DNA of 64,000 nucleotides from Rhodospirillales bacterium (GTDB taxonomy: Bacteria; Pseudomonadota; Alphaproteobacteria; Rhodospirillales; WMHbin7), in NCBI GenBank assembly GCA_016214125.1, contig JACRPC010000010.1, positions 1 through 64,000 of the forward strand. Reading direction: 5' to 3'. Shown here piece after piece: positions 3,059 through 50,545 of this stretch. Position 1 is the stretch's first letter, and every line of letters begins with the position of its first letter. Under the pieces are notes generated by a model, which saw only the letters and a program-made list of their open reading frames with translations, was not told the DNA's origin and did no database searches. A program made the translations under genes and the position numbers.

Positions 3059-3068
3059 GGGTCGCCTC

Positions 3069-5217: not shown

Positions 5218-5221
5218 CGGC

Positions 5222-6279: not shown

Positions 6280-6350
6280 AGAATTTATTTACTCCAATTC
6301 TATCATCGGCTCACTGGTCGTTTTCTAACGGATATTGCGCTAGCCAAGCC

Positions 6351-6364
6351 ATGACCTGGATCAA
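6351..6364. promoter_or_regulatory. Possible FNR/CRP-type operator
   Basis: The sequence ATGACCTGGATCAA matches the right half of the FNR consensus TTGAT-N4-ATCAA fully and the left half in three of five positions. It sits in the divergent spacer, 72 nt before the TRAP receptor start and about 175 nt before the OmpA-type gene. It is a sequence resemblance only. Confidence 0.35.
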
Positions 6365-6539
6365 GTGTGTAATAAAACAAAACGCTATTTATTCCAATTC
6401 CTCTCTGTTGCCAATTTGCAACAGCCTGGGATCGGATGGGTTTGGGGGGCGCTTATCGGGGCTCCTACGGGTTGCGAATCTTGGGCATTGATTGATAAAA
6501 AGGTCATGAATTGGATTCGCGAACAGGCAGGACCACAAG

Positions 6540-7625: not shown

Positions 7626-7657
7626 TCGGGCAAGGCTTTCCTACCGATCGTCTAGGC

Positions 7658-7690
7658 AAACGGCCCCCTTGCGGGGCCGTTTCGCTTTTT
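7658..7690 (+). terminator. Rho-independent terminator after the OmpA-type gene
   Basis: The stem ACGGCCCC/GGGGCCGT (7660-7667 with 7673-7680) has a 5-nt loop and is followed by TTTCGCTTTTT. Confidence 0.85.
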
Positions 7691-7765
7691 GGGGAAAAGT
7701 CGGGCGATCCTTGCGATTCCCCCTTCCGTAAAGACCCGGCTTTCGAGTAGCTTTCGTCCGGGCCA

Positions 7766-7805
7766 CGACCTCCCAACGGGTCGCGACCCTTCTGCAACGG
7801 AAGGG
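7766..7805 (+). ncRNA. serC leader: two tandem hairpins resembling the alphaproteobacterial serC RNA motif
   Basis: Just before serC, hairpin 1 pairs CGACC (7766-7770) with GGTCG (7779-7783), and hairpin 2 pairs CCCTTC (7787-7792) with GAAGGG (7800-7805). Hairpin 2 contains the serC Shine-Dalgarno (AAGGGG), so its folding could mask translation initiation. A short two-hairpin element upstream of serC is described in Alphaproteobacteria. The match to it is from memory of its general layout, not an alignment. Confidence 0.55.
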
Positions 7806-7813
7806 GAAGATCG

Positions 7814-8986: not shown

Positions 8987-9004
8987 TTTCCAGCGGGGGA
9001 TTCC

Positions 9005-10582: not shown

Positions 10583-10609
10583 AGCGCCTTGAGCGTTCGA
10601 TCGCGATTG

Positions 10610-10635
10610 AGGGGCTGCCCAGGCGGCCCCTTTTT
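10610..10635 (+). terminator. Rho-independent terminator after serA
   Basis: A GC hairpin (AGGGGC paired with GCCCCT, 10610-10615 with 10626-10631) is followed by a T-run to 10635. It closes the serC-serA operon. Confidence 0.75.
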
Positions 10636-10821
10636 CGTGTCGACGCCCGGCAAGGCAGCCGCGGCCGCGTGATAACAATTCTTCCAAGGAAGAGCCGATT
10701 TGGGAAACTCCCCTTGACCGGCTTTTCCGGGGTGATTATTCGATCGGGTCTTTAGCCCGCCGTAGCCCTGGCACCGCTTTCGGGGCACAATCGCCGATCG
10801 TCCGACACAAGGAAGCCCACC

Positions 10822-12069: not shown

Positions 12070-12190
12070 AAACGCGGTGCCAAAAAGGCGCCGATCGGCG
12101 CCCGGAATCACCCGGATTCGACCCGCCCGGCGCCGATGTTGGCCCGGCGCGGTGGGCGCGATTGCAGCGCGATTGAAGGAGGCGATGCCA

Positions 12191-12751
12191 ATGGCGGAGA
12201 CGATCGACCGGCCCGGCCCGGAGGCGGTGCTCGATTTCTGGTTCGTGGAAACCCCGCCCCGGCTGTGGTGGGCGAAATCGGAGGAATTCGATCGGCGGGT
12301 CGAGGCGCGTTTCGGGGCCACGCTGGCGGCGGCGGCGGCGGGCGAGCTGTTTGCCTGGCGCGAGAGCCCACAAGGGCGCTTGGCCGAGATCATCGTGCTC
12401 GACCAATTTTCGCGCAACATCTTCCGCGACCGGCCCCAAGCCTTCGCCCAGGACGGCATGGCGCTGGCCCTGGCGCAGACCGCCGTGGCGCTGGGCGCCG
12501 ATCGGGCGTTGGAGCCCACGCGGCGCGCGTTTCTTTACCTGCCCTACATGCACAGCGAATCGCTTGTCGTTCACGCCCAGGCGATGGCGCTGTTCGCCCA
12601 GCCGGGGCTGGAGGGCAATTTGGAATTCGAGCGAAAGCACAAGGCGATCATCGAGCGCTTCGGCCGCTATCCGCACCGCAACAAGGCGCTGGGCCGCGCC
12701 TCGACGGCCGAGGAAATCGAATTCCTGATGGAGCCGGGATCGGGGTTTTGA
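12191..12751 (+). CDS. DUF924 family protein
   Basis: This 186-residue cytoplasmic helical protein has the DUF924 pattern: an N-terminal EAVLDFWFVETPPRLWWAKS, then IIVLDQFSRNIFRDRPQAFA, FLYLPYMHSESL, and the terminal GRYPHRNKALGR segment. The fold resembles tetratricopeptide arrangements and no reaction is established. ATG 12191 is preferred because AAGGAGG lies 8 nt upstream; an ATG two codons earlier is too close to it. It is the last high-GC gene before a lower-GC cassette. Confidence 0.88.
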   Translation: MAETIDRPGPEAVLDFWFVETPPRLWWAKSEEFDRRVEARFGATLAAAAAGELFAWRESPQGRLAEIIVLDQFSRNIFRDRPQAFAQDGMALALAQTAVALGADRALEPTRRAFLYLPYMHSESLVVHAQAMALFAQPGLEGNLEFERKHKAIIERFGRYPHRNKALGRASTAEEIEFLMEPGSGF

Positions 12752-12905
12752 GGCGGGCCTGGCACGGCTTAAATTGAATTAGCTACCATTCGAAGAGTAT
12801 CTTGCGACCAACGCGGCCATTCGCTACCCTTCCTGATTGGCAAGTTTCTGGATGCTTTAGGAATCTGCCGATACAAGCGACAGGTTCCGCAATTGGGGGG
12901 GAAAC

Positions 12906-14282
12906 ATGGCGCGAATTGCAATACTTCATGGCTGGAGCGATCACTCCGATTCGTTCAGGCCCCTTTCAAAATTCTTGATTGGAAATGGGATGGCGCCAAC
13001 GCCGATTTGGCTTGGCGATTACCCTTCGATGGATGACGATGTCCGAATCGAGGATGTCGCCAAACGGCTTGATGTGGCAATCAAGGAAAAACTCGCATCC
13101 GGCGACCTCGACAATCCATTCGATATGATCGTGCACAGCACCGGCGGTCTGATCGTCCGGTCCTGGTTGGCGCAATATTTTCCTGAGGGAAAATCGAGCC
13201 CTTTGAAGCGTCTAATTATGCTGGCACCGGCCAATTTCGGTTCGAAACTCGCTAGCACCGGGAAAAGCATGTTGGGGCGGCTGACCAAAGGCTGGGATAA
13301 TTGGTTCCATACGGGAACTGAAATGCTGAACGCGCTAGAACTAGCCTCCCCCTACCAGTGGAATCTTGCACAACACGATCTCTTCGGATTGGGTTCGCCC
13401 ATTTACCGCGAGAAGGGAGTTTGGCCCTTCGTGATCATGGGCAGCCACCCCTATACGAGCGCGATCCGCCGCATCGTCAATGAGAATGGGTCTGACGGAA
13501 CGATACGCGTCAGCGCCGCTAACCTAAATGTCCGGGGCATCACGGTTGATTTCGCTGCAAACGAAGGAGATCCCCGGCTGACCCCGTGGCCATTTCGCGA
13601 TCCGTCTCTGCGCATTCCCTTCGCCGTCCTTCCCAATCGCTCGCATGGGTCGATCATCGATCAATCGGCCCCCGATACGAAGGTGGCCCCTTTGCCAGAC
13701 GGCGATGTCGGCGACCTAATCCTTGCCGCGCTGCGCGCCAATGATTTTTCAGCCTACCAATCGCTGGCGACTTCGTGGGCGGCACTGACCGATCAAACGG
13801 CGACCCGCAATGATCCCGACCCAGAATATTTCCATCAGTATTTTCAGGTGATCGTTCGCGTAGTCGACGACCACGGCAATGATGTCACCGACTACTTCGT
13901 TGAATTCTTTGACCGCACCATCAACGGCGAGGACGAGACCGTTCTCCTTCACCGTAAAGTAATCGAGGATGTGCATACCAACAAGATCAGTCCGTCTTAC
14001 CGTTGCTTTTTCGTCGATTACACCGATTTGATAAACCTTTATTACGAAACCGATTTCGGTGGAAAAAGGCCAACCGAGGTCGTCATGAGCCTATCGGCGG
14101 CGCCGCCGGGTAAGAACGTACAATACTTCGAAGATTCTGCAAAAGGAGCCCTTGGTCAGATTGTGGTCCACAGCAAGGATGGCGCGAAGGGCTTTTTCAC
14201 TCCCAATCAGACCCATCTCGTGAAGATCATTATTCCGAGAAATCCGCACAGCAATGTCTTTCGCTTCGTGAGCCAGCCCTAA
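12906..14282 (+). CDS. Lipase/LCAT-like alpha/beta hydrolase with an unassigned C-terminal domain
   Basis: This 458-residue protein has no signal peptide. The N-terminal ~280 residues form an alpha/beta hydrolase: oxyanion motif HGW (8-10), nucleophile elbow VHSTGGLIVR with Ser78, probable acid Asp197 in SDGTIRVSAANL, and His247 in NRSHGSIID. The HSTGG elbow is seen in LCAT/PGAP1-like acylhydrolases. Residues ~300-458 look beta-rich (YFQVIVRVVDDHGNDVTDYF) and match nothing I know. Base composition is unlike its neighbours. The membrane-protein gene begins 23 nt downstream, so the two are likely co-expressed. Substrate is unknown; lipid, ester or effector roles are all possible. Confidence 0.72.
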   Translation: MARIAILHGWSDHSDSFRPLSKFLIGNGMAPTPIWLGDYPSMDDDVRIEDVAKRLDVAIKEKLASGDLDNPFDMIVHSTGGLIVRSWLAQYFPEGKSSPLKRLIMLAPANFGSKLASTGKSMLGRLTKGWDNWFHTGTEMLNALELASPYQWNLAQHDLFGLGSPIYREKGVWPFVIMGSHPYTSAIRRIVNENGSDGTIRVSAANLNVRGITVDFAANEGDPRLTPWPFRDPSLRIPFAVLPNRSHGSIIDQSAPDTKVAPLPDGDVGDLILAALRANDFSAYQSLATSWAALTDQTATRNDPDPEYFHQYFQVIVRVVDDHGNDVTDYFVEFFDRTINGEDETVLLHRKVIEDVHTNKISPSYRCFFVDYTDLINLYYETDFGGKRPTEVVMSLSAAPPGKNVQYFEDSAKGALGQIVVHSKDGAKGFFTPNQTHLVKIIIPRNPHSNVFRFVSQP

Positions 14283-30072: not shown

Positions 30073-32208
30073 ATGGGATGCCGGGACCGGCAAATCGCCC
30101 TCGCCGACGCGGGCGGGCTGTGCTATCCCTTGCCCGCGAATGATGGCAATGAATCCAAACTCTTGAGCGGCAAACGATACCTTTTCTGGCGGGCGGCAAC
30201 CATCGGCCTGGCGATTCTGGCCGGGGCCTATGGCGCCGCGCTTCATTTGCGCGACCTGGCGCTGACGCGGGCCGAGATCAATCTGCGCAATCTGGGCCAT
30301 GCCATTGCCGGCCAGACCGAAGCGACGATGGCCGGGATCGAATTCGCCCTCAAGGGCGTTCGCGAACGGATCGAAGCCAATCCCTTACAGACTCCGGAAA
30401 GCCTGACGACGATTCTGACCAGCGAGCGCGCCAACGTGCCCTTCCTGCGCAGCATGACCCTGATTGGCGCCGACGGGATCATGCGCTTTCTCGCTAACCT
30501 GCCGATGCCGTCGCCGCCTTCGGATTTCAACGACCGGGCCTGGTTCATGGACGTGCGCGACAATCCCGGACGGCATTTCCGCATCGGCGAACCGGTGAAA
30601 AGCCGGGTGACCGGACTTTGGTTGGTTCCCCTCATTCTTCGCCTCGACGACCGGCGGGGCCAGTTCGCCGGCACCCTGGTGGGCGCCCTCGACCCGGCCT
30701 TCTTTGAAAAAAAATTCATGGACTTCAATCTGGGCCCGGGCGCGGCGATCGCGCTGCAACGCAAAGACAGCATGCTGCTGGCCCGCCAGCCCTTCGACGA
30801 AACCACGATCGGGCAAGTCTTTCCCAAAGGACCGATCTATCAGGCGGTGAAGGACGGCGCGGACGGCTTCGTGCGCGCCACCAGCGCCATCGACGGCCAG
30901 AAGCGCCTGATCAGCGGCACCCATGTCGGGACCTATCCGCTCTATGTGGCGATCTCGGTCACCGAGGACGCCGCCCTGGCCGGCTGGCGCGTCCAGGGGG
31001 CCATCGTCGGGCTGGCGGCCTTCCTGCTCTTGCTCCTGGTCGCGGTGCTGACCCGCTCCTCGCTCCACCTGCAAGCCGAGGCCGAGGCCCGCCAGGAGAC
31101 CGTCCGGCGCCTGGACGAAACGGTGCGCGAGCTGTCGGAAAGCGAGCGGGTCTTGCAACAGGCCCAGGACGTGGCAGATCTCGGCTATTACGTCTACGAC
31201 GTCGAGACCGACCGCTGGACCAGCTCGCCGATCCTCGACCGCATTTTCGGTATCGACGCCGATTACCCGCGCGACGCTCAAGGCTGGATCGATCTGGTGG
31301 CGCCGGAAAACCGCCCGGCGATGCGCGACTATCTGACCCATCTTCTGGCAACCAAGGCCGGCTTCGACCGCGAATACGAGATTGTCCGCAAAGCCGACGG
31401 CGCCCGGCGCTGGGTGCATGGGCTGGGCCGATTGGAGGGCGGCGCGCCCGGCCAGCCCTTGCGCCTGTTGGGCACCGTCCGCGACATCACCCTTGCGCGC
31501 GAGCGGGAAGATGAAATCCGCCGCTCGAACGCCGAACTCGAGCAATTCGCCTACATCGCCAGCCACGATTTGCGCGAACCCTTGCGCACCATCTCGAGTT
31601 TCGTGGCGCTCTTGGAGCGGCGCTACGCCGACCGGCTCGACGCCGAGGGCCGCGACTTCATTCGTTTCGCCAAGGACGGCGCCGAGCGCCTGGACCATCT
31701 GGTGCTCGACCTTCTCGACTATTCGCGTATCGGCCGCAGCGCCCAGCCCTTGGCGCCGGTCGCCCTGGCCGAGATCGTGGCCGCCGCCCGGCAGAATCTG
31801 GCCGAGCCCTTGATCCAGGCCGGGGTGCAATTGATCGTCGCCGACGATCTGCCGATCCTGCGCGCCCGCAAGGACGAGATGGTGCGGCTTTTCCAGAATC
31901 TGATCGACAACGCGATCAAATACCGCGCCGCCGACCGGCCCTGCCGGATCGAAATCCGCGCCCGGCGCGAGGCCAATGTCTGGCGCATCGAGGTCGCCGA
32001 CACCGGCATCGGCATCAAGACCGAGTATTTCGGCCGCATCTTCCGCATTTTCCAGCGCCTGCACCCGATCGACGCCTATGGCGGCGGCTCGGGCATCGGC
32101 TTGGCGATCTGCGACAAGATCGTCAAGAGCCATGGCGGGCGGATCGGCGTCGAATCGGACGGCGCCAACGGCACCACCTTTTTCTTCACCCTGCCGGCGG
32201 CGGATTAA
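30073..32208 (+). CDS. Sensor histidine kinase with Cache-type sensor and PAS domain
   Basis: This 711-residue membrane kinase has a transmembrane helix near residues 37-55, a large periplasmic dCache-like region to about 305, a second membrane helix near 315-335, and one PAS/PAC domain (about 360-480). The phytochrome-class HisKA carries His498 in YIASHDLREPLRTI. The ATP-binding domain has NLIDNAIKYR, VADTGIGI and GGGSGIGLAI. No receiver domain is present. The start is uncertain: ATG 30073, or a TTG near 30163 just before the first helix. It lies 159 nt upstream of kaiC in the same orientation and is a plausible input or output kinase for that module. Confidence 0.85.
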   Translation: MGCRDRQIALADAGGLCYPLPANDGNESKLLSGKRYLFWRAATIGLAILAGAYGAALHLRDLALTRAEINLRNLGHAIAGQTEATMAGIEFALKGVRERIEANPLQTPESLTTILTSERANVPFLRSMTLIGADGIMRFLANLPMPSPPSDFNDRAWFMDVRDNPGRHFRIGEPVKSRVTGLWLVPLILRLDDRRGQFAGTLVGALDPAFFEKKFMDFNLGPGAAIALQRKDSMLLARQPFDETTIGQVFPKGPIYQAVKDGADGFVRATSAIDGQKRLISGTHVGTYPLYVAISVTEDAALAGWRVQGAIVGLAAFLLLLLVAVLTRSSLHLQAEAEARQETVRRLDETVRELSESERVLQQAQDVADLGYYVYDVETDRWTSSPILDRIFGIDADYPRDAQGWIDLVAPENRPAMRDYLTHLLATKAGFDREYEIVRKADGARRWVHGLGRLEGGAPGQPLRLLGTVRDITLAREREDEIRRSNAELEQFAYIASHDLREPLRTISSFVALLERRYADRLDAEGRDFIRFAKDGAERLDHLVLDLLDYSRIGRSAQPLAPVALAEIVAAARQNLAEPLIQAGVQLIVADDLPILRARKDEMVRLFQNLIDNAIKYRAADRPCRIEIRARREANVWRIEVADTGIGIKTEYFGRIFRIFQRLHPIDAYGGGSGIGLAICDKIVKSHGGRIGVESDGANGTTFFFTLPAAD

Positions 32209-32367
32209 AGGGCTAGAAAAAGGAACTGGGCGTTGTCTGCCCATTTTCATGACATTTTTTTCGAATCTCACCTCCTTTACTCAACAATTGTCAGAAATAT
32301 TAATTAGGAATTCTTCCAAATCAGAATTATTCTACCTGGCCGGGACCCTTGCATTATTGAGGAAACG

Positions 32368-34143
32368 ATGACGGCCCAAAGAAAACGAAAAGAACCGTCA
32401 GCGACGATCCGCCCAAGCGGCATCGCCAAATGCCCAACCGGCATCGCCGGCTTCGACACCATCACCAAAGGCGGCTTGCCGCGCGACGCGGTGACGCTCG
32501 TCCTGGGCGGCCCGGGCAGCGGCAAGACCCTGTTCGCGCTGGAGTTCCTTGCTCATGGGGCCGGGCAGTTCGACGAGCCGGGCCTGTTCGTCGCCTTCGA
32601 GGAAAAGACCGACAAGATTCTGGCCAACGCCGCCGGATTCGGCTGGGGCCTTCCCGGGCTGGTGAAGGCCAACAAGCTGCGCTTCTTCGATGCCCGCCTG
32701 TCGCCCGACACCGTCCATGCCGGCGAATTCGATCTGGCCGGCATGCTGGCGATGCTGGGCAGTATGGCCAAGACGATCGGCGCCAAGCGGATCGTCTTCG
32801 ACGCGCTCGACATCTTTCTCGACTGGCTGGGCGATCCCGCTCTCCAGCGCAAGGAGATGTGGCGCCTGAACGCCTGGATGGAAGAGAGCGGCCTGGCGGC
32901 GGTCGTCACCTTGAAGATGGACAGCCGGAACGAGGAACGCATCCCGGAGCATTACGGCTGGATGCAGTTCATGACCGACACCGTGGTGCTGTTGCGCCAG
33001 GAAATGGCGCGGCACATGTCGGAACGGCTGCTCAAGGTGCTGAAATACCGCGGCTCGGACCACATCAACAGCAACTGCGCCCTGGTGATCGCCGAAGACG
33101 GCCTGCATGTGGCCGAACTGCACACCTTCGACACCTTGCCCAAACCCTCGACGGCGCGGGTCAGTTCGGGGGTCGCGCGGCTCGATCACATGCTGGGCGG
33201 CGGTTACATGCGCGGCTCGGGCATTCTGGTGACCGGCTCGCCCGGCACCGCCAAGACCACCCTGTGCGCCAGCTTCGCCGACGCCGCCTGCCAGCGCGGC
33301 GAAAAGGTGGTCTATTTCGCCTTCGACGAGACCGGGCCCGAGATCGTGCGCAACATGACCTCGATCGGCATGAATCTGGGCCGGCACGTCAAATCGGGCC
33401 GGCTGGAGTTCCGCAACCTGCACAGCCGGTTCCTCAATCCCGAGGAGACCTATGTCTGCTTCATCAAGGAATTGCGGGAGACCCACGCCACCTGCCTGAT
33501 CATCGATCCGCTTTCCTCGGTGGGAACCGACGTCAGCACCGTGTCGCTGATGGCCAAGCGCCTGCTCTATTCCGCCAAGGCCAAGGGGGTGACGTCGGTG
33601 TGGACCAGTCTTTTGGACGACGTGCGGACCAACATCGACGAATCCTCGTCGGCCGGCGTGTCGACCTGCGCCGACACTTGGATCCATCTCAATTACGAGG
33701 TCTTGAACGGCGAGCGCAACCGGGCGCTCACCATCGTCAAGTCGCGCGGCATGGCGCATTCCAACCAGGTGCGCGAGTTGATTCTTTCCGACCGGGGCGT
33801 CACCCTGGCCGACGTCTACGCCGCCTCGGGCGCCGTGCTGATGGGATCGGCGCGCTTCCAACGCGAAGAGGCCGACCGGGCCGAGGAGGAATTGAAACGG
33901 GCCGAATTCGATCGCCGGCAGCGCCAGTTGGAGGCCGACATCGCCGGCCTGAAGCGGGAGGTGGAGATGAAACTTGAGGACGCGGCGATCCTCAAGCAGG
34001 CGGAGACCCTGCGCTGGAAAGGCAAGGAGCAATTCGCCTCGGTGAGCCTGGCCTATCGCGGCGCCGATGACGACCCGGCGCTCCCGCCGGCGGCGAAGCC
34101 GCCGCGCAAGGGGGCGAGCGGCAAAAGGAGGCCACCGCGATGA
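32368..34143 (+). CDS. kaiC: KaiC-like double RecA-type ATPase
   Basis: This 591-residue protein has two KaiC domains. CI has Walker A GGPGSGKT (47-54), the catalytic pair Glu78-Glu79 and Walker B RIVFDAL. CII has Walker A GSPGTAKT (290-297) and Asp320-Glu321 in place of the usual Glu-Glu. The CII phosphorylation dyad is kept as Ser432-Thr433 (GVSTCADT). After the core, residues ~495-550 form a charged coiled coil and a basic tail, unlike the short cyanobacterial tail. KaiC proteins autophosphorylate in timing or stress signalling. RBS GAGGAAAC precedes the ATG. The kaiB start overlaps its stop. Confidence 0.93.
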   Translation: MTAQRKRKEPSATIRPSGIAKCPTGIAGFDTITKGGLPRDAVTLVLGGPGSGKTLFALEFLAHGAGQFDEPGLFVAFEEKTDKILANAAGFGWGLPGLVKANKLRFFDARLSPDTVHAGEFDLAGMLAMLGSMAKTIGAKRIVFDALDIFLDWLGDPALQRKEMWRLNAWMEESGLAAVVTLKMDSRNEERIPEHYGWMQFMTDTVVLLRQEMARHMSERLLKVLKYRGSDHINSNCALVIAEDGLHVAELHTFDTLPKPSTARVSSGVARLDHMLGGGYMRGSGILVTGSPGTAKTTLCASFADAACQRGEKVVYFAFDETGPEIVRNMTSIGMNLGRHVKSGRLEFRNLHSRFLNPEETYVCFIKELRETHATCLIIDPLSSVGTDVSTVSLMAKRLLYSAKAKGVTSVWTSLLDDVRTNIDESSSAGVSTCADTWIHLNYEVLNGERNRALTIVKSRGMAHSNQVRELILSDRGVTLADVYAASGAVLMGSARFQREEADRAEEELKRAEFDRRQRQLEADIAGLKREVEMKLEDAAILKQAETLRWKGKEQFASVSLAYRGADDDPALPPAAKPPRKGASGKRRPPR

Positions 34144-34433
34144 GCGCCAAGGGTGCGAAGATGGTGCTTCGGCTGTACATCGCCGGGCATTCGCCCAATT
34201 CGGTGGTGGCGCTGGCCAATCTCGACTGGCTGCGCCGCGCCCATTTCCAGGACGCCACCGTCGACATCGTCGACATCCTACGCGAACCCGAGCGGGCGAT
34301 GGCCGATCGGGTGATCACCGCCCCGGCCCTGTTCAAGGTGGCGCCCAGCCCGCCAAGGATGTTGCTGGGCAATCTCAGCGATGCGACGAAAGTGTTGCAG
34401 GGGCTGGGCTTGACCGCTCATGGCGCGCTCTAA
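34140..34433 (+). CDS. kaiB: KaiB-like protein
   Basis: This 97-residue thioredoxin-fold protein shows the KaiB pattern: LRLYIAGHSPNSVVALANL, then VDIVDILREPERAMADRVIT, and PALFKVAPSPPRMLLGNLSD. KaiB is a fold-switching partner that binds the KaiC CI ring. The ATG overlaps the kaiC stop by 4 nt, with AAGGAGG about 8 nt upstream inside kaiC. Its end overlaps the next kinase by 14 nt. KaiA is absent, as is usual outside cyanobacteria. Confidence 0.92.
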   Translation: MSAKGAKMVLRLYIAGHSPNSVVALANLDWLRRAHFQDATVDIVDILREPERAMADRVITAPALFKVAPSPPRMLLGNLSDATKVLQGLGLTAHGAL

Positions 34434-35337
34434 GCCGGCCCTTCCCGCGGACGATCCGGGGGACGTCGATCTCGTCGAACTGGTCGCGCGGCTGGCCGAG
34501 GCCGAGCGGGCGATCCGCGTGGCGACCGGCGGCGAAATCGACGCCGTCCTGCTGCCCGGCGCCGTCACCCCCTTCCTGCTCCGCGACGCCCAAGAGGCGC
34601 TGCTGCGCGCCAAGAACGAGGCCGAACTGGCCAACCGCGCCAAATCGGAGTTCCTGGCGGCGATGAGCCATGAGTTGCGCACCCCCCTAAACGCCATCCT
34701 GGGCTTTTCCGAAGCGATGCTGTCGGGGGTGTTGGGCGACATCGCCAACGCGCGCCACCGCGGCTACATCGCCGACATTTTCGAATCGGGCCGTCATTTG
34801 CTGGGGCTGGTCAACGACATCCTCGACATCGCGACCATCGAGGCCGGCAAGCTGGGCATGCACGCCGAGGAATGCGCGCTGCCCGAGATCGTGGCCGCCG
34901 CCTTGCTGCTGGTCGAGCGACGCGCCCAGGGAAGCGGGGTCCGGATCGATTCCCGGATTGCCGAGCCGCTGCCGCGCCTGTTCGTCGACCGGCGCCGCGT
35001 CAAGCAGGTGCTGGTCAACCTGCTGTCCAACGCCGTGAAGTTCACCCCGCGCGGCGGAACGGTTTCGGTTTCGGCCGCGCGCACGCCGGATGGCGGTCTG
35101 ACCCTTGCCGTGGCCGATGACGGCATCGGCATGGACGCCGAGGAATTGGCCCTGGCGCTGGCGCCCTTCGGCCAATCGGGCGATCCGTATGTGCGGACCG
35201 TCGAAGGCAGCGGCCTGGGCCTGCCCTTGAGCCAGGGCCTGATGGCGGCGCACGAAGGCACCTTGGAAATCGTCAGCACGAAAGGCGTGGGCACCACGGT
35301 GACCGCCTACTTCCCCAAGGACCGAGTGGTCGGCTAG
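34420..35337 (+). CDS. Small soluble histidine kinase linked to KaiBC
   Basis: This 305-residue cytoplasmic kinase has no membrane segment or recognised sensor domain. About 75 N-terminal residues (coiled-coil-like, AEAERAIRV and AQEALLRAKNEAELANRAKS) precede HisKA with His84 in [13 protein letters not shown]. The ATPase domain follows, with [19 protein letters not shown] and GSGLGLPLS. It overlaps kaiB by 14 nt, so it is probably translationally coupled and a direct KaiC/KaiB-responsive output. Its kinase core closely resembles those of the kinases at 45.7 and 48.4 kb. The stop overlaps the convergent cyclase gene by 4 nt. Confidence 0.88.
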   Translation: MARSKPALPADDPGDVDLVELVARLAEAERAIRVATGGEIDAVLLPGAVTPFLLRDAQEALLRAKNEAELANRAKSEFLAAMSHELRTPLNAILGFSEAMLSGVLGDIANARHRGYIADIFESGRHLLGLVNDILDIATIEAGKLGMHAEECALPEIVAAALLLVERRAQGSGVRIDSRIAEPLPRLFVDRRRVKQVLVNLLSNAVKFTPRGGTVSVSAARTPDGGLTLAVADDGIGMDAEELALALAPFGQSGDPYVRTVEGSGLGLPLSQGLMAAHEGTLEIVSTKGVGTTVTAYFPKDRVVG

Positions 35338-36791
35338 AACGCCTCGGCCTCGGCACGGTCGCGGCCCCCTTCCTTGGCGCGATAAAGGGCGGCGTCGGCG
35401 CGGCCGACCAGCGATTCCAGCGTTTCGCCGGAGCGGTGGAGAGCGACGCCCAGGCTGACCGTCACCAGGCGCGGTTCCTCGGTCTGGCCGGCCGCTTCCT
35501 CGGCCAGCGCGGCGCGGATCTTGTCGGCCAGCCCGCGGGCCTGATCGAGCGGGCAATCCTTGAGCGCCACCAGGAATTCCTCGCCGCCCCAACGTCCGAC
35601 CACGTCGCTGGCCCGAAGCGCCCGGCGCACCGTTTGCGCCGTGCGGTGCAGCAGCTTGTCGCCGGCCTGGTGGCCGAAGCGGTCGTTGACCGCCTTGAAA
35701 TAATCGAGATCGAAGAGGATGGCGGCCAGCGGCTTCTTGGTCCGCTCGGCCTCGCGGATCGACTGGGCCAACACCAGCTCCATGGCCTGGCGATTGAGCA
35801 GCCCGGTCAAGGGATCGGTGGTCGCCATGGTTTCCAGTCGGCGCTGGAAGTAATTGAGCACCACCGCCGCCAAGAGGGTGACGATCACCGTGACCAGGGC
35901 GCTGATCGCCAGGCTGCGCACCAGCGCCGCCTGGGCGGGCTTTAGGGATTCGTCGACCGACTGCTCGACCATCAGATGCCAGTTGAGTTCGGGAATGAAG
36001 CGGGTGTTGACCAGCCATTGAGCGCCCTCGTGCTGGTAGTCGAACAGGGCGCCGGCCGGACCGGTGGCGAGAATGACCGGCGCCAGGGCCCCGATGCCCG
36101 GCGCCTCGGCCAAATTGTCCGCCCCGATATGGGCGACCGAGCCGCGCATCACCACCCGACCCTGGCGGTCGACGAAGGTGATGCGGCGTTTGAAGCGCGC
36201 CTGATAGCTTTCCAGAAGATGGCGCACCGTATCGACCGTGAGGCCGACGCCGGTCGCCCCCAGGAACCGGCCCTGGTAATCGAAGACCCGGTAATTGATG
36301 AAGATGGTGAGCGTCTCGCGGTTGGTCCAATCGGGATCGACGTTGATCTCGTAGGGTTCGGTCAGGGCGCGGACCCGGAAGTACCAGGAATCGCGCTCGT
36401 CGGTCTCCGCCACCGTCTTGAAGCGGCCGCTGTGGTGGTAATAGGTCCGGCTGCGTTCGGAGACGAAGAAGCTGGTCACCGTCCGGTAGCGATCCTTGAT
36501 TTCCTTGAGATAGCGGATGACGGCGCCTTCGTCGCCCTCGCCGGCCAGGGCCCAGTCGCGCAGGAAGGTGTCCTGGGCCATCATCGAAGAAATGAAGATC
36601 GGCCTAAGCAGGTCCTTCTGGATTTCCGAATAGATGTTGTCGCCGGTGAGCGGCAATTGGTGGGTGGAAATGCTTTCCAAGACCGTGTCGCGCGCCACCC
36701 GGTAGACGCTGAGGCTCACCGCCAGAAATCCCGCAACCAGCAAGACGACAAGGATGGCGATCAACCGCTTCTTGCCGGTCATCCGCTCCAT
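35334..36791 (-). CDS. Membrane diguanylate cyclase with Cache sensor
   Basis: This 485-residue protein has two membrane helices (about residues 8-29 and 292-314) flanking a periplasmic dCache-like domain (RSRTYYHHSGRF, ETDERDSWYF, TIFINYRVFDYQGRFLGATG). A GGDEF domain follows with DPLTGLLNR, the Mg/GTP site FDLDYFKAVNDRFGH and the active motif RWGGEEFLVAL. It makes cyclic di-GMP. RxxD inhibitory-site candidates are weak (RALRASD). The C-terminus overlaps the kinase stop at the CTAG shared by both genes. Confidence 0.9.
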   Translation of the reverse strand: MERMTGKKRLIAILVVLLVAGFLAVSLSVYRVARDTVLESISTHQLPLTGDNIYSEIQKDLLRPIFISSMMAQDTFLRDWALAGEGDEGAVIRYLKEIKDRYRTVTSFFVSERSRTYYHHSGRFKTVAETDERDSWYFRVRALTEPYEINVDPDWTNRETLTIFINYRVFDYQGRFLGATGVGLTVDTVRHLLESYQARFKRRITFVDRQGRVVMRGSVAHIGADNLAEAPGIGALAPVILATGPAGALFDYQHEGAQWLVNTRFIPELNWHLMVEQSVDESLKPAQAALVRSLAISALVTVIVTLLAAVVLNYFQRRLETMATTDPLTGLLNRQAMELVLAQSIREAERTKKPLAAILFDLDYFKAVNDRFGHQAGDKLLHRTAQTVRRALRASDVVGRWGGEEFLVALKDCPLDQARGLADKIRAALAEEAAGQTEEPRLVTVSLGVALHRSGETLESLVGRADAALYRAKEGGRDRAEAEAF

Positions 36792-37010: not shown

Positions 37011-38237
37011 ATGACCGACACGAACGCGCACGCCCCCAACCCAGAGCCGAACGGCGCCCCGGGCGGCAAGGGCTTTGCCCGCCATCTTTTCGCCCCGGTG
37101 AAGATTTCCGCCAGCCAGGCCCTCGATCTGCTGGTGCCGTTCCGCCACTCGCAGCACATCCGCCGTCACGCCGCGCAGGTGATCATCTCGCGCATCCAGC
37201 TTGTGAGCGCGCTGTTCGCGGTCTTGGTGCCGCTGTTCGCCATCATCGATTGGATGGTCTTTCCCTGGCCGCAATGGCTGATGATGACCGGGTTGCGCGT
37301 CGCCTCGGCCCTGGTCTTCCTGCTGCTCGCCTGGCCCTGGGACAGCGGCAAGAGCCGCGTTCAGGCCGACGCCATGCTGATGATCATGCTGCTGGTGCCG
37401 CCGGTCTTCTATCTGCTGTCGATCGAGGTCAATCGGGGCATGCTGCACGGCGATTTCGGCCGGCTGGTGACCAGCCTCTACGCCCTGATGCCCAACATCG
37501 TGCTGGCCGGGCTGGCCATCTTCCCCCTGACGGCCTTGGAAGTGGCGGCCTTTTCGATTCCCGCCTTCGCCTTCGCCGTCTTTGGCATCCAATTGAGCGG
37601 CCAGGAGCTGGCGCTCAACCAGCATGGCCCGATGCTGTGGCTGATGGTGCTGGTGATGGGCGTCGCCATGTTCTCGGGCATGAGCCAGCTCCATTACATG
37701 ACGGCGCTGGTCAACCGGGCGATGGTCGATCCCCTGACCGGCGCCTACACGCGCCGCTCGGGCGGCGAGACGCTCGACCTCTTGTTCCGGCTGGCGGCGC
37801 TGCAGAACCTGCCGCTTTCCATCGCCTTCTTCGATCTCGACAAGTTCAAGTCGATCAACGACAGCTTCGGCCACGAGGCCGGCGACGCGGCGCTGAAAAC
37901 CCTGGCCGAGCGCCTGCGCCAGGGCTTGCGCGGCGGCGACGTTCTGGTGCGCTGGGGCGGCGAGGAGTTCGTCGCCATCTTGAACAACACCGACGCCGCC
38001 GGAGCCGAGATCGTGATTAAGCGCCTGCGCCAGATGGGCTTCGGCGACCGGCCGGACGGCAAGCCGATGACCGCCTCGATCGGGGTGGCCGAACGGCGCC
38101 AGGACAAGACGCCCGACTGGCCGCATCTGATCGAGCTGGCCGATCAGCGCATGTATGGCGCTAAGAAGGGGGGGCGCGACCGCGCCGTCTTCCCCGGCAA
38201 CCGGGTGTTGCCCTTCGGCTCGGCGCCGATCCTGTAG
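37011..38237 (+). CDS. Membrane diguanylate cyclase with six-helix sensor region
   Basis: This 408-residue protein has an N-terminal cytoplasmic stretch of about 60 residues and five or six hydrophobic helices (about 60-235). The GGDEF domain shows DPLTGAYTRRSG, FDLDKFKSINDSFGHEAGD and RWGGEEFVAILNN, so the active site is intact. The membrane part resembles MASE-type sensors but I cannot name the family. RBS GAGGAGGGAC is ideal. It is divergent from the other cyclase across 219 nt in which I saw no operator. Confidence 0.88.
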   Translation: MTDTNAHAPNPEPNGAPGGKGFARHLFAPVKISASQALDLLVPFRHSQHIRRHAAQVIISRIQLVSALFAVLVPLFAIIDWMVFPWPQWLMMTGLRVASALVFLLLAWPWDSGKSRVQADAMLMIMLLVPPVFYLLSIEVNRGMLHGDFGRLVTSLYALMPNIVLAGLAIFPLTALEVAAFSIPAFAFAVFGIQLSGQELALNQHGPMLWLMVLVMGVAMFSGMSQLHYMTALVNRAMVDPLTGAYTRRSGGETLDLLFRLAALQNLPLSIAFFDLDKFKSINDSFGHEAGDAALKTLAERLRQGLRGGDVLVRWGGEEFVAILNNTDAAGAEIVIKRLRQMGFGDRPDGKPMTASIGVAERRQDKTPDWPHLIELADQRMYGAKKGGRDRAVFPGNRVLPFGSAPIL

Positions 38238-44731: not shown

Positions 44732-45673
44732 ATGACCTTGACGCCCGACCAGAAGGCCGAGATCGACGCCGCCCGCGCCCAGAGCCACGCCACCAGGCGC
44801 GCCACCGTGCCGGCCTTGGAGGAAATTCTCTACCAGGCCTTTCCGGTGCTCGATCACGGCGTGCTTCGGGTGATCGACTATATGGGCGACGACGGCGCCA
44901 TCGTCCAGGCGGCCCGGGTCTCCTACGGCAAGGGCACCCGCAAGACCTTGGAGGACAAGGGGCTCATCGACTATCTGATGCGCCACCGCCACACCACCCC
45001 CTTCGAGATGTGCGAGATCAAATTCCACGTCAAGCTGCCGATCTTCGTCGCCCGGCAGTGGATTCGCCACCGCACCGCCAACGTCAACGAATATTCGGCC
45101 CGCTATTCGATCCTGGACCGCGAATTCTACATTCCGGCGCCCGACCATCTGGCGGCGCAGTCGCGGATCAATCGCCAAGGCCGCGGCGCCGTGCTGGAGG
45201 GCGAGGAGGCGCGCAAGGTGCTTGAGCTTCTCAAGACCGATTCCGAGCGCTGCTACGCCTCCTACGAATGGATGCTGAACGAGGACGAGACCGGCAAGCA
45301 GACCGATCCCGAACGGGTGGGGCTGGCGCGTGAGCTGGCGCGAATGAACCTGACCATCAACGCCTATACCCAATGGTACTGGAAGACCGATCTGCACAAT
45401 CTCTTCCACTTCCTGTCGCTCAGAGCCGATTCGCACGCCCAGTACGAAATCCGCATCTATGCCGAGGCGATGCTGGAGATGGTCAAGCGCTGGGTGCCGC
45501 TGGCCTTCGACGCCTTCAAGCGCTACCGGCTGGGCGGCGTCCATCTTTCGGCGGGCGGGTTGGCGATCGTCAAGCGCCTGCTGGCGGGCGAAAAGGTGGC
45601 GCAAGAGGGAAGCGGCCTGTCGGCCCGCGAATGGCGCGAACTGATGGCGGCCTTGGGCCGCGAGGAAGGCTAA
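44732..45673 (+). CDS. thyX: Flavin-dependent thymidylate synthase
   Basis: This 313-residue FAD enzyme makes dTMP from dUMP using NADPH and methylene-THF. The ThyX motif [15 protein letters not shown] is at about residues 111-125, with [20 protein letters not shown] before it and [18 protein letters not shown] near the C-terminus. RBS GGGGGAC precedes the ATG, 32 nt after xerD. The TAA stop overlaps the convergent kinase gene by 4 nt. Confidence 0.95.
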
Positions 45674-48216
45674 TCGGGTTTGATTACCCGCTCCGGCGGG
45701 AAGCAGACCGTCACCCGGGTGCCTTGGCCCTTGGCGCTGTCGATCGTCATCTTGCCGCCATGCAGTTCGATCAGGCTCTTGGTGAGCGGCAGGCCCAAGC
45801 CGGTGCCTTCGTAATAATGTTCGGTACCCGCCACCCGGCCAAAGGGCACCAGTGCCTTGGCGATGCCCTCGGTGTCCATGCCGATGCCTTGATCCTCGAC
45901 CGTGAGACAGCAGCGGCGTTCCCGACCAAGCGTGACCGTGAGGGCGACCTCGGTTTCGGGCGGCGAGAACTTGACCGCGTTGGACAGCAGATTGGCGAGG
46001 ATCTGCTTCAGGCGCCGCGGATCGGCGAAAAGGCGCGGCGCCGGTTGGGGCAGCCGCGCGGTCAGCGCAACCTTGCCCTTGAGCGCCCGGGGGCGGACAA
46101 GACGGAGCACCGATTCGACCAGCGACGCCAGTTCGATGGTCTCCGGCGCCAGGGTCAGCATGCCGGCCTCGATGGCGGAAATATCGAGGATGTCGCTGAT
46201 CAGCTCCAAGAGATGATGGCCGGAATCGAAGATGTCCTGGGTGTATTCGCGGTGCTTGGCGTTGGCCACCTCGCCCAGCAGGCCCGACAGCATGGCCTCG
46301 GAATAGCCGATGATGGCGTTCAAGGGGGTGCGCAGCTCGTGGCTCATATGGGCTAGGAATTCCGACATCGCCTTGTGCCCGGCCTCGGCACGGGTGCGGG
46401 CGTCGCGCAGCAGACGCTCGGCCTCCTTGCGGGCCCCGATGTCGCGGTGCAGGGAGACGAAATGGGTGATCTGGCCCGCGGGATCGCGAATCGGGTGGAA
46501 GGCCGATTCCATCCAGGTCTCGCCCCCATCCTTGCGGCGGATTTGCATCTCTTCGACCCAGCTTCGGCCCTGCATCAGATCGGCGTGAATGCGCCGATAG
46601 GTGCCGGACGGGGTCGCTTTGGACCGAGTGAGCGCCGGGCCCCTGCCGATCGCCTCGGCGGCGGAATAGCCGGTGAGGCGCTCGAAGGCCGGGTTGACGT
46701 ACTCGACGACTTCCTGGGTGTTGACGACGATCACCATTTCCTGGGTCTGCTCAAGCACCCGCGACAAGGTGCGCAACTGGTCCTCGATCCGCTTGCGCTC
46801 GGTGACGTCGACGACGATGCCAAGCGTGCCCAGAACCGTGCCCGTGGGGTCGGTCCGACAGATGCCGCGCGCCTGGACGTGGCGGATCGAGCTGTCGGGG
46901 CGCAGAACGCGATACTCGTTTTCGTAACCCCGACCGGGCTCGATGGCCTCGCCCAGCCGGGCGACCTGATCGACGTCGTCGGGATGGATGCAACAGAGCC
47001 AATTGCTCCAGGTGCTGGGTAGCGAATTCGGGCGGCGCCCCAGGATGCGCCAGATTCCATCCGACCAGATATGCTCCTTACGGCCAGCCTCCCAGGCCCA
47101 GCTTCCCATGCCGGCCAGACCCTCGGCCTCGGTGAGAAGATGGCTCTGGCGCCGCAACGCCTCGTCGCGCTCGGCGATCGCTTCGGCCATCGCGTTAAAG
47201 ACTTTGGCGAATTGCTGGAACTCGCGGCTGTCGTCGGCCTGCGCCTCCAGGCGGCTGGCGAGATCGCCCTTGGCGATCCGCTCGGCCGCCTCGCGGAAGC
47301 GGTTGTGGCGACGCTGGAAGGCAAATTGGGCGCTAAGGCCGAACAGCAGCAAGGAGGCGATCGCCACGGCGGCAAAGATGGCGAAGTGACGCGCCTGTTG
47401 GCGATCGATCTCGGCCAGGATGGGACGATGATCGACGCCCACCGCCACCCGGATGCCGTCCTTGAAGTCGGTCACCACCAGGGTCTGGCGCCGATCATCG
47501 GGCATCGGACCGAAAGCGCGCCCGTTCTTGGCGTCGAGCGGGCTTTCGATGTCGGCCAAGACCTTGCCCAGCAACGCCGGTCGCAAGGGAGCCGTCGCCA
47601 ACACGGTGTCACGGTCGTCGAGCACCATGACGACCGCTTCCGTCCCGATGCCCAAATCCTCCAACAGCCGGTCAAGCCACTCGAGGCTCACCGCGCCGAC
47701 CAGCGCCCGGTTGACCCCGGCATTCGGTTCCAAAAGAGGGACGCCATAGGGCACGAAGGGTTTGCCGCTGCGCGAGCCGATGGTGGCGACGCCGAGCGCC
47801 GGCTTTCCGGTTTCGACGGCCCTTTTGGCGACCGTCAGGGTCACCGGATTGAAGGTTCGCCGATCGGGATCGGCGCTGCAATCGACCAACCCGTCGACGC
47901 TTCCGCGCGCGATGTCGACGAACAGCGGCGTCGAGGCCCGGATGTCGGCGATGCGCGCCTGGCAGGTGGCGGGATCGCCGAAGCGGACCCGGCTCATGGC
48001 GGCGATCTGCTGCATGGCCAATTCCGCCGCCTGCAGCATCGAACGGTGCCGCATGACGGCGGCCCGCGCCAAGGTGGTTGCCTGCTCGGCATGCTGGGTC
48101 AGCACGCTGCTTTTCATTCGGCCGAGATGAAGGAGTTCGAGACCCAGGAACGGCGCCAGCGCCAACAGCGCCAGAACTAGCAGGCGTCCCAAGAAGGTGC
48201 GCGGTATGGCGAACAC
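45670..48216 (-). CDS. Hybrid-less sensor histidine kinase with HAMP and two PAS domains
   Basis: This 848-residue membrane kinase has helix 1 at residues ~10-30, a periplasmic sensor to ~280 and helix 2 at ~288-308. HAMP ([19 protein letters not shown]) is followed by two PAS/PAC units ([40 protein letters not shown]). HisKA has His626 ([13 protein letters not shown]). The ATPase domain has [19 protein letters not shown] and EGTGLGLPL. There is no receiver domain. GTG 48216 is chosen because GGGGAGG lies ~8 nt upstream; a longer frame starts at a TTG without RBS. It is paralogous to the next kinase. Confidence 0.87.
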
Positions 48217-48367
48217 GCCTACGCCTCCCCACCCGGTCCAATCATGGCCGGTTTCGGACAATTCCCTCCTTAAAAAAAGGTTAAACCCTTTTGAAGCGCC
48301 GCACAATGGTGAAGGGCATAACCGTTTATTCAACCTGTCCTAAGGCCCGCTTTCCAAAGGATGGCGA

Positions 48368-50545
48368 TCAGTTGGCGCCGAGCAGCGCCTCGGGCGGAAA
48401 GAAGACGGTGACCGTTGTGCCCCGACCCTTGGCGCTGTCGATCGACAGCGTGCCGCCATGCAGCTCGACTAGGCTTTTGGCGAGCGGCAAGCCCAAGCCG
48501 GTGCCTTCGTAGCGCCGGGCCAGACGGCTGTCGACCTGACCGAAGGGTTGCAGCGCGGTGACGATGCCGGCTTCGTCCATGCCGATGCCGGTGTCGACGA
48601 CCCGCAAGCGGCAGCCCTGGCCGGGCCCGCCCTCGAGGGAGAGCGTCACCCTTCCGCCTTCGGGCGTGAACTTGACGGCGTTGGAGAGAAGATTGATCAG
48701 AATCTGCTTGAGGCGAAGGGGATCGGCCCGCAGGCGGAGCGGGGTGTCGGGCTTGTCGAGACGCAAGTCGACGCCGCCCTTCTCCGCCCGAGAGCGCACC
48801 AGACGCAACGCCGCCTCGACGATCGCCTCCGGATCCACCGCTTCGAGGTTGAGGGCGATCTGCCCGGCTTCGGCGGCCGCGACATCGAGGATGTCGTTGA
48901 TCAGCTCAAGGAGATGGCGGCCCGAGGAGAAGATATCCTGGAGGTATTCGCGCTGGTTGGCGTTGGCGAGCGCGCCGTGCAGGCCGGTCAGCAGCGCCTC
49001 GGCATAGCCGATGATGGCGTTCAAGGGGGTGCGCAGCTCGTGGCTCATGTTGGTGAGCAGTTGGGTTTTCGCCCGGTTCGCCAGCTCGGCCTGGTCCTTG
49101 GCCGCGACGATTTCCTCGACCGCCCGCTTGCGTTCGGTGATGTCGGCGACCAGGCCGAACACCCGCTCGACGCCGTCGGCCGCGTCACGCGACCGCACGC
49201 CGATCACCTCGACATTGCGGACACGGCCATCGGGGCGAATGATCCGGTATTCCAGGCGATATCCGCCCTGGTTCATGCTTTCGTTGATGGTGCGCGTCAC
49301 CCGATCGAGATCGTCGGGATGCACGCAACGCCGCCAGTTGTCGCGGGTGGGAGCGATGGAGCCGGGCGGAACGCCCATAATGTCCCAAACGCCATCGGAC
49401 CAGATCTGACGATCGCCGCGCAGATCCCACTCCCAACTCCCCATGTGGGCGATCCGCTGCGCCTCGTCGAGCACCCGCTTCTGGCGAGCCAAACGGGCGT
49501 CGCGGTCGGCGATCGACGCCGCCATGGCGTTGAAGGCCTGGGCGAAGCGGCGGTAGTCCTGGGAATCGGCGGGGTCGGATTCCAGGCGGGTCGCCAGATC
49601 GCCGGCGCCGATCTTCAGCGCCGCCGCCTCGAATTGGCGGTAGCGCCGCACCAGCAGGATATGCGCGAAGCCGGCGAAGATCAGGATGGAAAGCAACACC
49701 ACCGGAACGAGGACGATGAAATGGGCGCGAAGGCGCTGTTCGGCCTCGGCCAGGGCGTGATCGGTATCGATCCCCACCGCCACCCGAATGCCGCCCTCGA
49801 AGCCGGTGATCGAGAGGTGGCGATGCACCTGGTCGGCGAAGACGACGGACAAAAGGGCGCCGGCGCCCGCCGAGTCCGCCCCCGGCAAGGGTTTGCCGAT
49901 CAGCTCGGGTTTGGCCGGGTAGGATGCGAGGATCGTGTTGCGGTCGTCGAGCACCAGGACCATCGCTTCGGCCCCGATCGCCAAATCGGCAACCAGACGA
50001 TCGAGCCACTCCAGGCTTGCGCCGGCGACCAGAATCCGCTGCCGGCCGCCCTGGACATCGATCAGCGGCCGGGCCAGGGGAATGATCGGCCGGCCGTGAT
50101 TGGGGCTGATCGTCGCCGGCGCCACCGCCGGCTGGCCGGTGCGGACGACCTCTTGCACCGCGACCATCGCTTGGGGAATGAAGCGGGTCTGGCCGGCGCG
50201 ACCGGCGCAATCGACCGAACCGTCCGGCAAACCGCGGGCGATGTTGATGAACAGGGGCGTGGTGTTGCGAACTTCCAGAAGACGCACGGCGCAATCGCCC
50301 GAATCGCCCGAGCGCACCGGGTCCATGAGGGCAATCTGCTCCAGGGCGAGCAGCGCCGCCTTGAGCAGCGAGCGATGCTGGAGGGCGACGGCGCGGGCCA
50401 AAGTCTGGGCCTGTTCGGCCGAGGATTCGATCAGCCGGCTGCGCAGTTGGGCAAGGGAATAGAATTCGAAGACGAGGAAAGGGGCCAGCGCCAGGGCCAA
50501 CAGCAACGCGATTCGTCCATAGAAGGTGCGAAAGAACGCGTGCAC
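48368..50545 (-). CDS. Sensor histidine kinase with HAMP and PAS domain (paralogue of the downstream kinase)
   Basis: This 725-residue kinase has the same plan as its neighbour but one PAS domain fewer. It has membrane helices near 10-30 and 278-300, a periplasmic region with matching landmarks ([40 protein letters not shown]) and HAMP (LKIGAGDLATRLESDPADSQ). PAS follows (GSWEWDLRGDRQIWSDGVWD), then His502 in [15 protein letters not shown] and an intact ATPase domain. The start is GTG, with AGAGGG upstream. The gap to the next kinase gene is 151 nt. It probably arose by tandem duplication. Ligand and response regulator are unknown. Confidence 0.87.
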   Translation of the reverse strand: MHAFFRTFYGRIALLLALALAPFLVFEFYSLAQLRSRLIESSAEQAQTLARAVALQHRSLLKAALLALEQIALMDPVRSGDSGDCAVRLLEVRNTTPLFINIARGLPDGSVDCAGRAGQTRFIPQAMVAVQEVVRTGQPAVAPATISPNHGRPIIPLARPLIDVQGGRQRILVAGASLEWLDRLVADLAIGAEAMVLVLDDRNTILASYPAKPELIGKPLPGADSAGAGALLSVVFADQVHRHLSITGFEGGIRVAVGIDTDHALAEAEQRLRAHFIVLVPVVLLSILIFAGFAHILLVRRYRQFEAAALKIGAGDLATRLESDPADSQDYRRFAQAFNAMAASIADRDARLARQKRVLDEAQRIAHMGSWEWDLRGDRQIWSDGVWDIMGVPPGSIAPTRDNWRRCVHPDDLDRVTRTINESMNQGGYRLEYRIIRPDGRVRNVEVIGVRSRDAADGVERVFGLVADITERKRAVEEIVAAKDQAELANRAKTQLLTNMSHELRTPLNAIIGYAEALLTGLHGALANANQREYLQDIFSSGRHLLELINDILDVAAAEAGQIALNLEAVDPEAIVEAALRLVRSRAEKGGVDLRLDKPDTPLRLRADPLRLKQILINLLSNAVKFTPEGGRVTLSLEGGPGQGCRLRVVDTGIGMDEAGIVTALQPFGQVDSRLARRYEGTGLGLPLAKSLVELHGGTLSIDSAKGRGTTVTVFFPPEALLGAN

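Follow-up and report, generated by a model that had tools for sequence, protein, structure and literature searches.

A KaiA-less kaiC-kaiB operon whose short histidine kinase carries a candidate Kai-docking module

The 64,000-nucleotide (nt) stretch of an alphaproteobacterial contig analyzed here (contig JACRPC010000010.1, from a Rhodospirillales bacterium; "the window", to which coordinates refer unless another locus is named) contains a kai region at 30073-35337 in which kaiC and kaiB are followed by a short histidine kinase gene. These three genes are a real KaiBC operon of a known kind but in an unusual form. The best explanation of the observations as a whole, to which we give an even chance, is that the kinase reads the KaiC-KaiB complex through a small module at its N-terminus. 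Two features set the operon apart: the module is shared with the genes that follow kaiB in related loci, where it stands in front of different outputs, and the second KaiC domain belongs to a series of progressively altered active sites.

A KaiBC operon without KaiA

The operon and the parts of its kinase are laid out as follows.

32368..34143, + strand: kaiC, 591 aa, a double-domain KaiC with a long C-terminal tail
34140..34433, + strand: kaiB, 97 aa
34420..35337, + strand: histidine kinase after kaiB, 305 aa, without PAS or other Pfam sensor domain
34462..34626, + strand: N-terminal Kai-associated module of the 305-aa kinase, helix - hairpin - long helix
34639..35322, + strand: HisKA + HATPase_c core of the 305-aa kinase, grouping with the genome's own kinases

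The layout resembles a gene fusion: kaiC and kaiB overlap by 4 nt (ATGA) and kaiB and the kinase gene by 14 nt, and the positions of the open reading frames (ORFs) bear out the boundaries and overlaps given by an earlier first-pass annotation of this DNA. Among loci of the KaiC clade defined below, a 4-nt start/stop overlap is possible at 44 of 79 kaiC/kaiB junctions and 57 of 78 junctions between kaiB and the next gene. Upstream, 159 nt separate kaiC from another kinase gene; this gap (32209-32367) is visibly A+T-rich amid a G+C-rich region and likely holds a promoter.

Both Kai assignments are sound at the family level. KaiC matches PF06745 (284 bits) in two stretches, corresponding to two tandem KaiC P-loop domains, and scores 466 bits against NF006799 (cut-off 408) and 271 against TIGR02655 (cut-off 546); its closest solved structures are those of Rhodobacter sphaeroides (8dba, 8fwi and 8db3, 338-348 bits). 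KaiB matches PF07689 (59.5 bits, cut-off 27) and stays below the cut-offs of two NCBIfam equivalogs (62.7 and 65.2 bits against 145 and 110). The genome, 98.94% complete, encodes one full KaiC (a second match, at 25.7 bits, is at the level of RadA) and one KaiB. A search of it for KaiA (PF07688) finds nothing while the Synechococcus elongatus control is detected, so that the earlier description of a KaiBC system without KaiA holds. The family's four other genomes belong to a single different genus, and two of them are 81-87% complete; their only matches to KaiC are at the level of RadA, and each of the four conserves purA-hisZ. As a side observation, several R. sphaeroides-type loci (L036 at 7692-8365, L041, L042, L043 and L045) have two kaiB-like genes after kaiC.

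A conserved module at the N-terminus of the kinase

The comparison set is a clade of 84 KaiC rows with Ala or Ser in the Walker A motif of the second KaiC domain (CII), the window included; L040 and L130 are one contig counted twice, and the 80 named loci are the best 80 of 107, found with two motifs of which one (VST[IC]ADTW) favors a Ser-Thr dyad. For 78 of these rows, not counting the window, an ORF following kaiB (the follower) was picked and its domains were assigned by single-sequence seeds. Residues ~15-69 of the window kinase form a conserved module of ~50 residues, whose pattern (L...L......L...tgGevDaV......fLL..AQ..l...e) recurs in 67 of the 78 followers, ahead of GGDEF-EAL or kinase domains. 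The kinase had been called sensor-less, which is true of Pfam domains (0 families match residues 1-73 at E up to 10) but not of the protein, since this module occupies the region. Eleven followers miss the pattern: those of L107 and L129 carry a variant that was put into the clade profile described below, those of L077, L099, L110 and L113 are short ORFs and probably mis-picked, and those of L039, L040, L130, L119 and L139 are without the module. The pattern match at L036 is false. L130 (3800-6019), an alphaproteobacterial clade member, has a kinase gene ending 4 nt into kaiC on the upstream side and none after kaiB.

AlphaFold2, given 67 module sequences, predicts a helix (3-26), a short hairpin and a second helix (45-73) with a mean predicted local distance difference test (pLDDT) score of 93; the whole window kinase modeled from its single sequence was uninformative (pLDDT 45). 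Structure searches returned no known relative (Foldseek, 4 matches, best E 5.6; VIA-align, best Z 2.4), which does not by itself prove a new fold. The followers of R. sphaeroides-type kaiBC loci begin with a similar segment (EAEE.LRAIR.GEVDALVV...), and a profile of these (A7) matches the clade profile (A4; hhalign 95.5, E 1.4e-8).

The module is nearly confined to genomes with a tailed KaiC. Among 397 genomes of the phylum the clade profile matched four, strongly only in the window's own genome (65.9 bits, a training row) and at 21-23 bits in the other three; within this sample there was no match in 17 genomes with short-tailed or other KaiCs, nor in 9 with a Ser-Ser KaiC. Of 32 genomes of the clade 27 were positive, and in 24 of these any match beyond the first scored below 32 bits. 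Twelve of the 32 had a module in the profile, and 15 of the remaining 20 were positive as well; in one genome (G797) two module genes lie in direct succession. In 299 genomes the R. sphaeroides-type profile matched eight genes strongly (75.6-97.6 bits), each of them immediately downstream of a Ser-Ser tailed kaiC; six had contributed to the profile and two were untrained. It also gave two weak matches (in G531, and a second match in G466). Over 60 loci, distances between modules agree with distances between KaiCs (Mantel r 0.84, 0 of 2000 permutations). The co-occurrence with kaiBC expected of the kinase is thus found for its N-terminal module and not for its core.

Exchangeable outputs and a home-grown kinase core

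The module is retained alongside KaiC, and the output that follows it is swapped. GGDEF and/or EAL proteins without a kinase are the commonest followers in the clade (39/78), 24 are kinases (two also with EAL), and 15 are without a seed domain, 8 of these being cut by a contig end. A signaling gene with recognized domains directly follows kaiB in 63 of the 78 loci, which, together with the near-confinement of the module to such genomes, supports the proposal that this is a KaiA-less KaiBC system with a kinase as its likely output. On the KaiC tree the output class changes seven times by parsimony and at least twice by starred branches. In all six followers scanned with Pfam, PAS domains lie between the N-terminus and the output: the clade members L053, L104, L107 and L129 end in a HisKA hybrid, GGDEF-EAL, HisKA_3 and HisKA, respectively, and the R. 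sphaeroides-type L033 and L035 in HWE kinases.

The window kinase (HisKA + HATPase_c in Pfam) is shorter than all 24 other kinase followers of the clade, the shortest of which has 558 aa. In a quick tree (supported by the Shimodaira-Hasegawa-like approximate likelihood ratio test, SH-aLRT, only) its core groups with six cores of its own genome (98, starred), and the cores of kaiB-follower kinases form separate groups apart from it. The protein is therefore a chimera, with the module fused straight onto a kinase core of the genome's own family. Since it has no PAS part and its output is a core of local origin, Kai is presumably its only input. Matches to PdhS (204.9, cut-off 2000) and DivJ (179.8, cut-off 1000) fall below the equivalog cut-offs and reflect core similarity only.

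Some other arrangements were noted. Two large tandem kinases on the minus strand of the window (45670-48333 and 48368-50545) have cores close to that of the kaiB-linked kinase, and the genome holds further such paralogues. In a Hydrogenophilales metagenome-assembled genome (MAG), two module genes stand in a row after kaiB (L058 at 8003-13375 and from 13407 onward; L200 at 2045-10226), a hybrid kinase with an EAL match and then a GGDEF-EAL protein. A gammaproteobacterial MAG that also has a kaiB-linked module gene carries a module-bearing GGDEF-EAL gene away from kaiB (L201 at 2967-5888; 41 bits in hmmsearch, 48 bits in the scan with the clade profile).

The KaiC clade and its CII active site

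The motifs of the window KaiC are the following.

32506..32529, + strand: CI Walker A, GGPGSGKT, residues 47-54, canonical
32599..32604, + strand: CI catalytic Glu78-Glu79, intact
33235..33258, + strand: CII Walker A, GSPGTAKT, residues 290-297, Ala for Gly before Lys
33325..33330, + strand: CII pair Asp320-Glu321, equivalent to E318D of S. elongatus KaiC
33661..33666, + strand: phospho-acceptor dyad Ser432-Thr433
33856..34140, + strand: KaiC C-terminal tail, 95 residues, a coiled coil presumed by homology with 8dba

The alignment confirms the Ser432-Thr433 dyad and the Asp-Glu pair in CII that had been pointed out before. Walker A motifs said to be kept in both domains are canonical in CI but not in CII, which has the form GxxxxAKT. 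The long tail is also present: 95 residues follow Arg496, alignable with the coiled-coil dodecamer 8dba and presumably forming a coiled coil. The median length of this part is 83.5 residues among 18 R. sphaeroides-type rows and 16 among 25 short-tailed ones. The protein thus has the C-terminal extension of ~50 residues or more that defines the coiled-coil type, but neither the two-serine acceptor nor the CII Glu-Glu of the R. sphaeroides type.

Trees were built with the motif columns left out, one of 97 rows (taken from 136, with 9 fragments, duplicates or odd rows skipped and Asp-Ser rows sampled) and one of 50 rows (omitting L010, L139, L006, L007, L137, L087 and L102). The clade of the window KaiC forms one side of a branch in both (SH-aLRT 86 with 97 rows; 100/99 with 50 rows). 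R. sphaeroides-type rows (KaiC2, coiled-coil tail) form one group (100/99) that is sister to the clade, with the window outside it, and the short-tailed KaiC1/3-like rows another (100/100). Placing KaiC among the KaiC1/2/3 groups, the check that had been suggested, therefore puts it in a divergent clade next to KaiC2 and apart from KaiC1/3. There it stands with L064 and L107 (81/89) on a long end branch.

Within the 84 rows, the residue before the Walker A Lys of CII is Ala with one exception (83 Ala, 1 Ser). At the site equivalent to S. elongatus E318, 82 rows have Asp, one has Glu and one has Ser; the E319 site shows 68 Ser, 10 Glu, 5 Thr and 1 Ala; and at the T432 site there are 62 Thr, 12 Ala, 6 Lys, 3 Ser and 1 other residue. 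Across the clade CI retains Glu-Glu, and CII retains its ATP-holding Lys and Arg. All 18 R. sphaeroides-type rows have Gly in CII Walker A, Glu-Glu and Ser-Ser. Outside the clade 48 of 52 rows have Glu-Glu, and L156 combines Asp-Glu with a normal Walker A, so the Gly-to-Ala and Glu-to-Asp changes are not strictly tied. The Asp-Ser rows form a fully supported subgroup (100/100, 50 rows), with the Asp-Glu members and one Glu-Glu member (L126) outside it. One Asp-Ser KaiC is that of Methylomonas methanica R-45363 (L078). These patterns suggest that CII likely passed from Glu-Glu through Asp-Glu to Asp-Ser and that several lines subsequently lost the acceptor Thr. In short-tailed KaiCs (L046, L047, L049, L050, L147, L148, L150-L155, L157 and L158) the CI Walker A reads GxxxSAKT: the Gly-to-Ala change arose in the other domain too.

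In S. elongatus KaiC, according to the accessible part of one study, E318 serves to activate the acceptor hydroxyls and E319 is a ligand of one Mg; both mutants at position 318, E318A and E318D, are arrhythmic, and E318A is without phosphotransfer (PMC2777353). The window KaiC is a natural E318D that retains E319, for which slow or conditional autophosphorylation is expected. Whether it falls in a clade lacking autophosphorylation, a placement that the first-pass annotation named as counting against its account, has no clean answer: most members are Asp-Ser, while the window protein keeps Asp-Glu and Ser-Thr.

A proposed mechanism and its alternatives

These observations can be drawn together as follows. 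The device would be a divergent clade's version of the coiled-coil-tail KaiBC, lacking KaiA. CI, with its intact Glu-Glu, would burn ATP and carry KaiB, and CII (Ala in Walker A, Asp-Glu, Ser-Thr) would bind nucleotide and be phosphorylated slowly or conditionally, so that the state of KaiC-KaiB may follow ATP/ADP in an hourglass-like manner. The module of the co-translated kinase would dock on the KaiC-KaiB assembly, and since its second helix is predicted to run straight into the HisKA helix, docking could switch the kinase. Relatives have a module of this kind ahead of PAS domains and a GGDEF-EAL or hybrid-kinase output. Timing by a phosphorylation cycle is less sure here than in R. sphaeroides. 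More tentatively, and with somewhat less than an even chance, tailed-KaiC bacteria in general may share a docking module that reads KaiC-KaiB ahead of interchangeable outputs (HisKA, HisKA_3 and HWE kinases, GGDEF-EAL) and takes the place of the KaiB-like domain of SasA; the CII ring of one clade would be turning from a kinase into a nucleotide/phosphate sensor, and in the window the reader would be cut down to module and kinase core.

Several results weigh against a kinase that reads KaiC-KaiB through its module as part of a timer. S. elongatus with E318D is arrhythmic, so the window KaiC may no longer cycle like a clock. Five of the 32 clade genomes are without the module (L039, L040, L139, L126 and L119), so a clade KaiC can do without it. 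Module-like matches also occur away from kaiB (G808, contig C53, 48 bits; weaker ones in G796, G812 and G820), and in G824 the match and kaiC are on different contigs, that of kaiC being 6 kb long. The agreement of module and KaiC distances would also follow from common descent alone, and the module scans scored up to 16 (clade profile, 397 genomes) or 21 (R. sphaeroides-type profile, 299 genomes) candidates per genome, so that misses are possible.

The module could instead be a mere dimerization or signaling-helix cap, with the kinase co-expressed but constitutive or sensing another input and KaiBC acting elsewhere. A helix leading into the kinase helix is what many N-terminal caps look like, and the structure searches found no relative of known role; but a generic cap would be expected away from kai genes, whereas the strong matches in the 397 and 299 sampled genomes are only in those with a tailed KaiC, and the domains behind the module vary. 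We consider this unlikely. A better case, though still a doubtful one, can be made that KaiBC of this clade senses ATP/ADP or stress rather than keeping time, with no phosphorylation cycle and with CII as a nucleotide-sensing, kinase-poor ring; a kinase readout may still exist under this reading. The residue counts lean this way (Ala or Ser in every CII Walker A, Asp in 82 of 84 at E318, Ser, Thr or Ala in 74 of 84 at E319, the acceptor Thr replaced in 22 of 84, with CI intact), as does the behavior of the E318A and E318D mutants. On the other side, the window KaiC retains Glu321 (the Mg ligand position), Ser-Thr and the ATP-holding Lys/Arg, and GxxxxAKT need not be inactive, since other KaiCs (L046, L047, L049, L050, L147 and others) have it as their CI Walker A. 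Lastly, the operon might be recently acquired and decaying, the short kinase a deletion remnant and the module a relic. The absence of KaiC from the four other family genomes, the long KaiC branch and the missing PAS part would fit. This is nonetheless very improbable: the three frames are open, the overlaps are kept, HisKA and HATPase_c score well, and the CI and kinase motifs are intact.

Neighboring genes and candidate targets

Three flanking genes were considered.

30073..32208, + strand: Cache/PAS histidine kinase upstream, judged not a conserved part
35334..36791, - strand: Cache-GGDEF gene, convergent neighbor, not part
37011..38237, + strand: GGDEF gene, neighbor, not part

The upstream kinase (dCache_1_like/PAS_3/HisKA/HATPase_c in Pfam) has the position and domains reported for it but is no conserved partner: the gene before kaiC varies from locus to locus (one ORF was picked per locus, in some cases a perhaps spurious one on the opposite strand), and the core of the upstream kinase matches those of other kinases in this genome. 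The suggested connection of the small kinase to the two nearby diguanylate cyclases did not hold up. Both have only GGDEF with or without Cache in Pfam and no receiver domain, a scan of the window with one receiver seed picked up no receiver-like ORF, and counterparts of the 37-kb gene and parts of the 35-kb one lie in the four family genomes on contigs other than that of purA-hisZ; as the kai genes are absent from these known kin and the cyclases present there, the cyclases do not depend on the kai genes. A divK-pleD target pair was also rejected, the pair at C35 being cheY-like and cheB-like instead. The genome has 68 receiver matches, among which a cognate response regulator may lie; none of four single-domain receivers inspected was identified as cognate. 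Locus L199 has a tandem receiver-like ORF.

Significance and comparison with known systems

How KaiBC is read out outside cyanobacteria is an open question, and a module that goes with tailed KaiC ahead of different outputs is a concrete candidate. The 305-aa window kinase is its simplest version for testing because there is no PAS domain to account for. The Glu-Glu, Asp-Glu, Asp-Ser series offers natural KaiCs for asking which of the two activities, ATPase or autokinase, a timer needs, since the change at its first step is the one that leaves S. elongatus arrhythmic (E318D). The frequency of GGDEF-EAL followers suggests cyclic di-GMP as a common output; in cyanobacteria, the available text of one report states, this messenger alters the period without acting directly on KaiC (PMC13001216). 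What is new here is the CII series and the N-terminal module: neither the module nor the Asp-Ser KaiC clade with its CII series was the subject of any paper found in a search that left out subscription papers and preprints. A histidine kinase or GGDEF/EAL gene after kaiBC was already known.

SasA, the cyanobacterial KaiC-reading histidine kinase, uses a thioredoxin-fold domain resembling KaiB for docking. The window kinase is likewise proposed to read KaiC, so the analogy with SasA drawn previously applies to its role; it does not extend to its build, where a predicted helix-hairpin-helix module takes the place of the KaiB-like domain. The circadian KaiABC oscillator has KaiA, which is not detectable in the window genome. 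Schmelling 2017 (PMC5520375), in its available part, judged SasA-type reading very unlikely outside cyanobacteria because the KaiB-like domain is missing. The layout itself, kaiC and kaiB followed by a histidine kinase or GGDEF/EAL gene, was reported for non-cyanobacteria in 2011 with the Ramlibacter genome (PMC3164672), including both output classes seen here; the accessible part of that paper describes neither the follower N-terminal module nor the CII changes or a module-plus-local-kinase chimera. According to a 2016 study, as far as its available text goes, kaiC-B-PAS/HK operons (HK, histidine kinase) occur in Rhodopseudomonas palustris and R. sphaeroides, and the R. palustris one likewise has three genes, one predicted transcript and a long KaiC C-terminus, with adaptive timing shown; its KaiC has catalytic EE and TSS sites where the window has DE and S-S-T (PMC4794148). 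Among the closest known systems is also R. sphaeroides KaiBC (KaiC2 type; 8dba, 8fwi; PMC10076222), which shares the kaiC-kaiB-kinase order without KaiA, the long tail and CI Glu-Glu. It also has a related N-terminal module on the following kinase, but differs in CII (GxxxxGKS, Glu-Glu and Ser-Ser, against GxxxxAKT, Asp-Glu and Ser-Thr) and in its follower, a PAS + HWE kinase where the window has a HisKA kinase without PAS.

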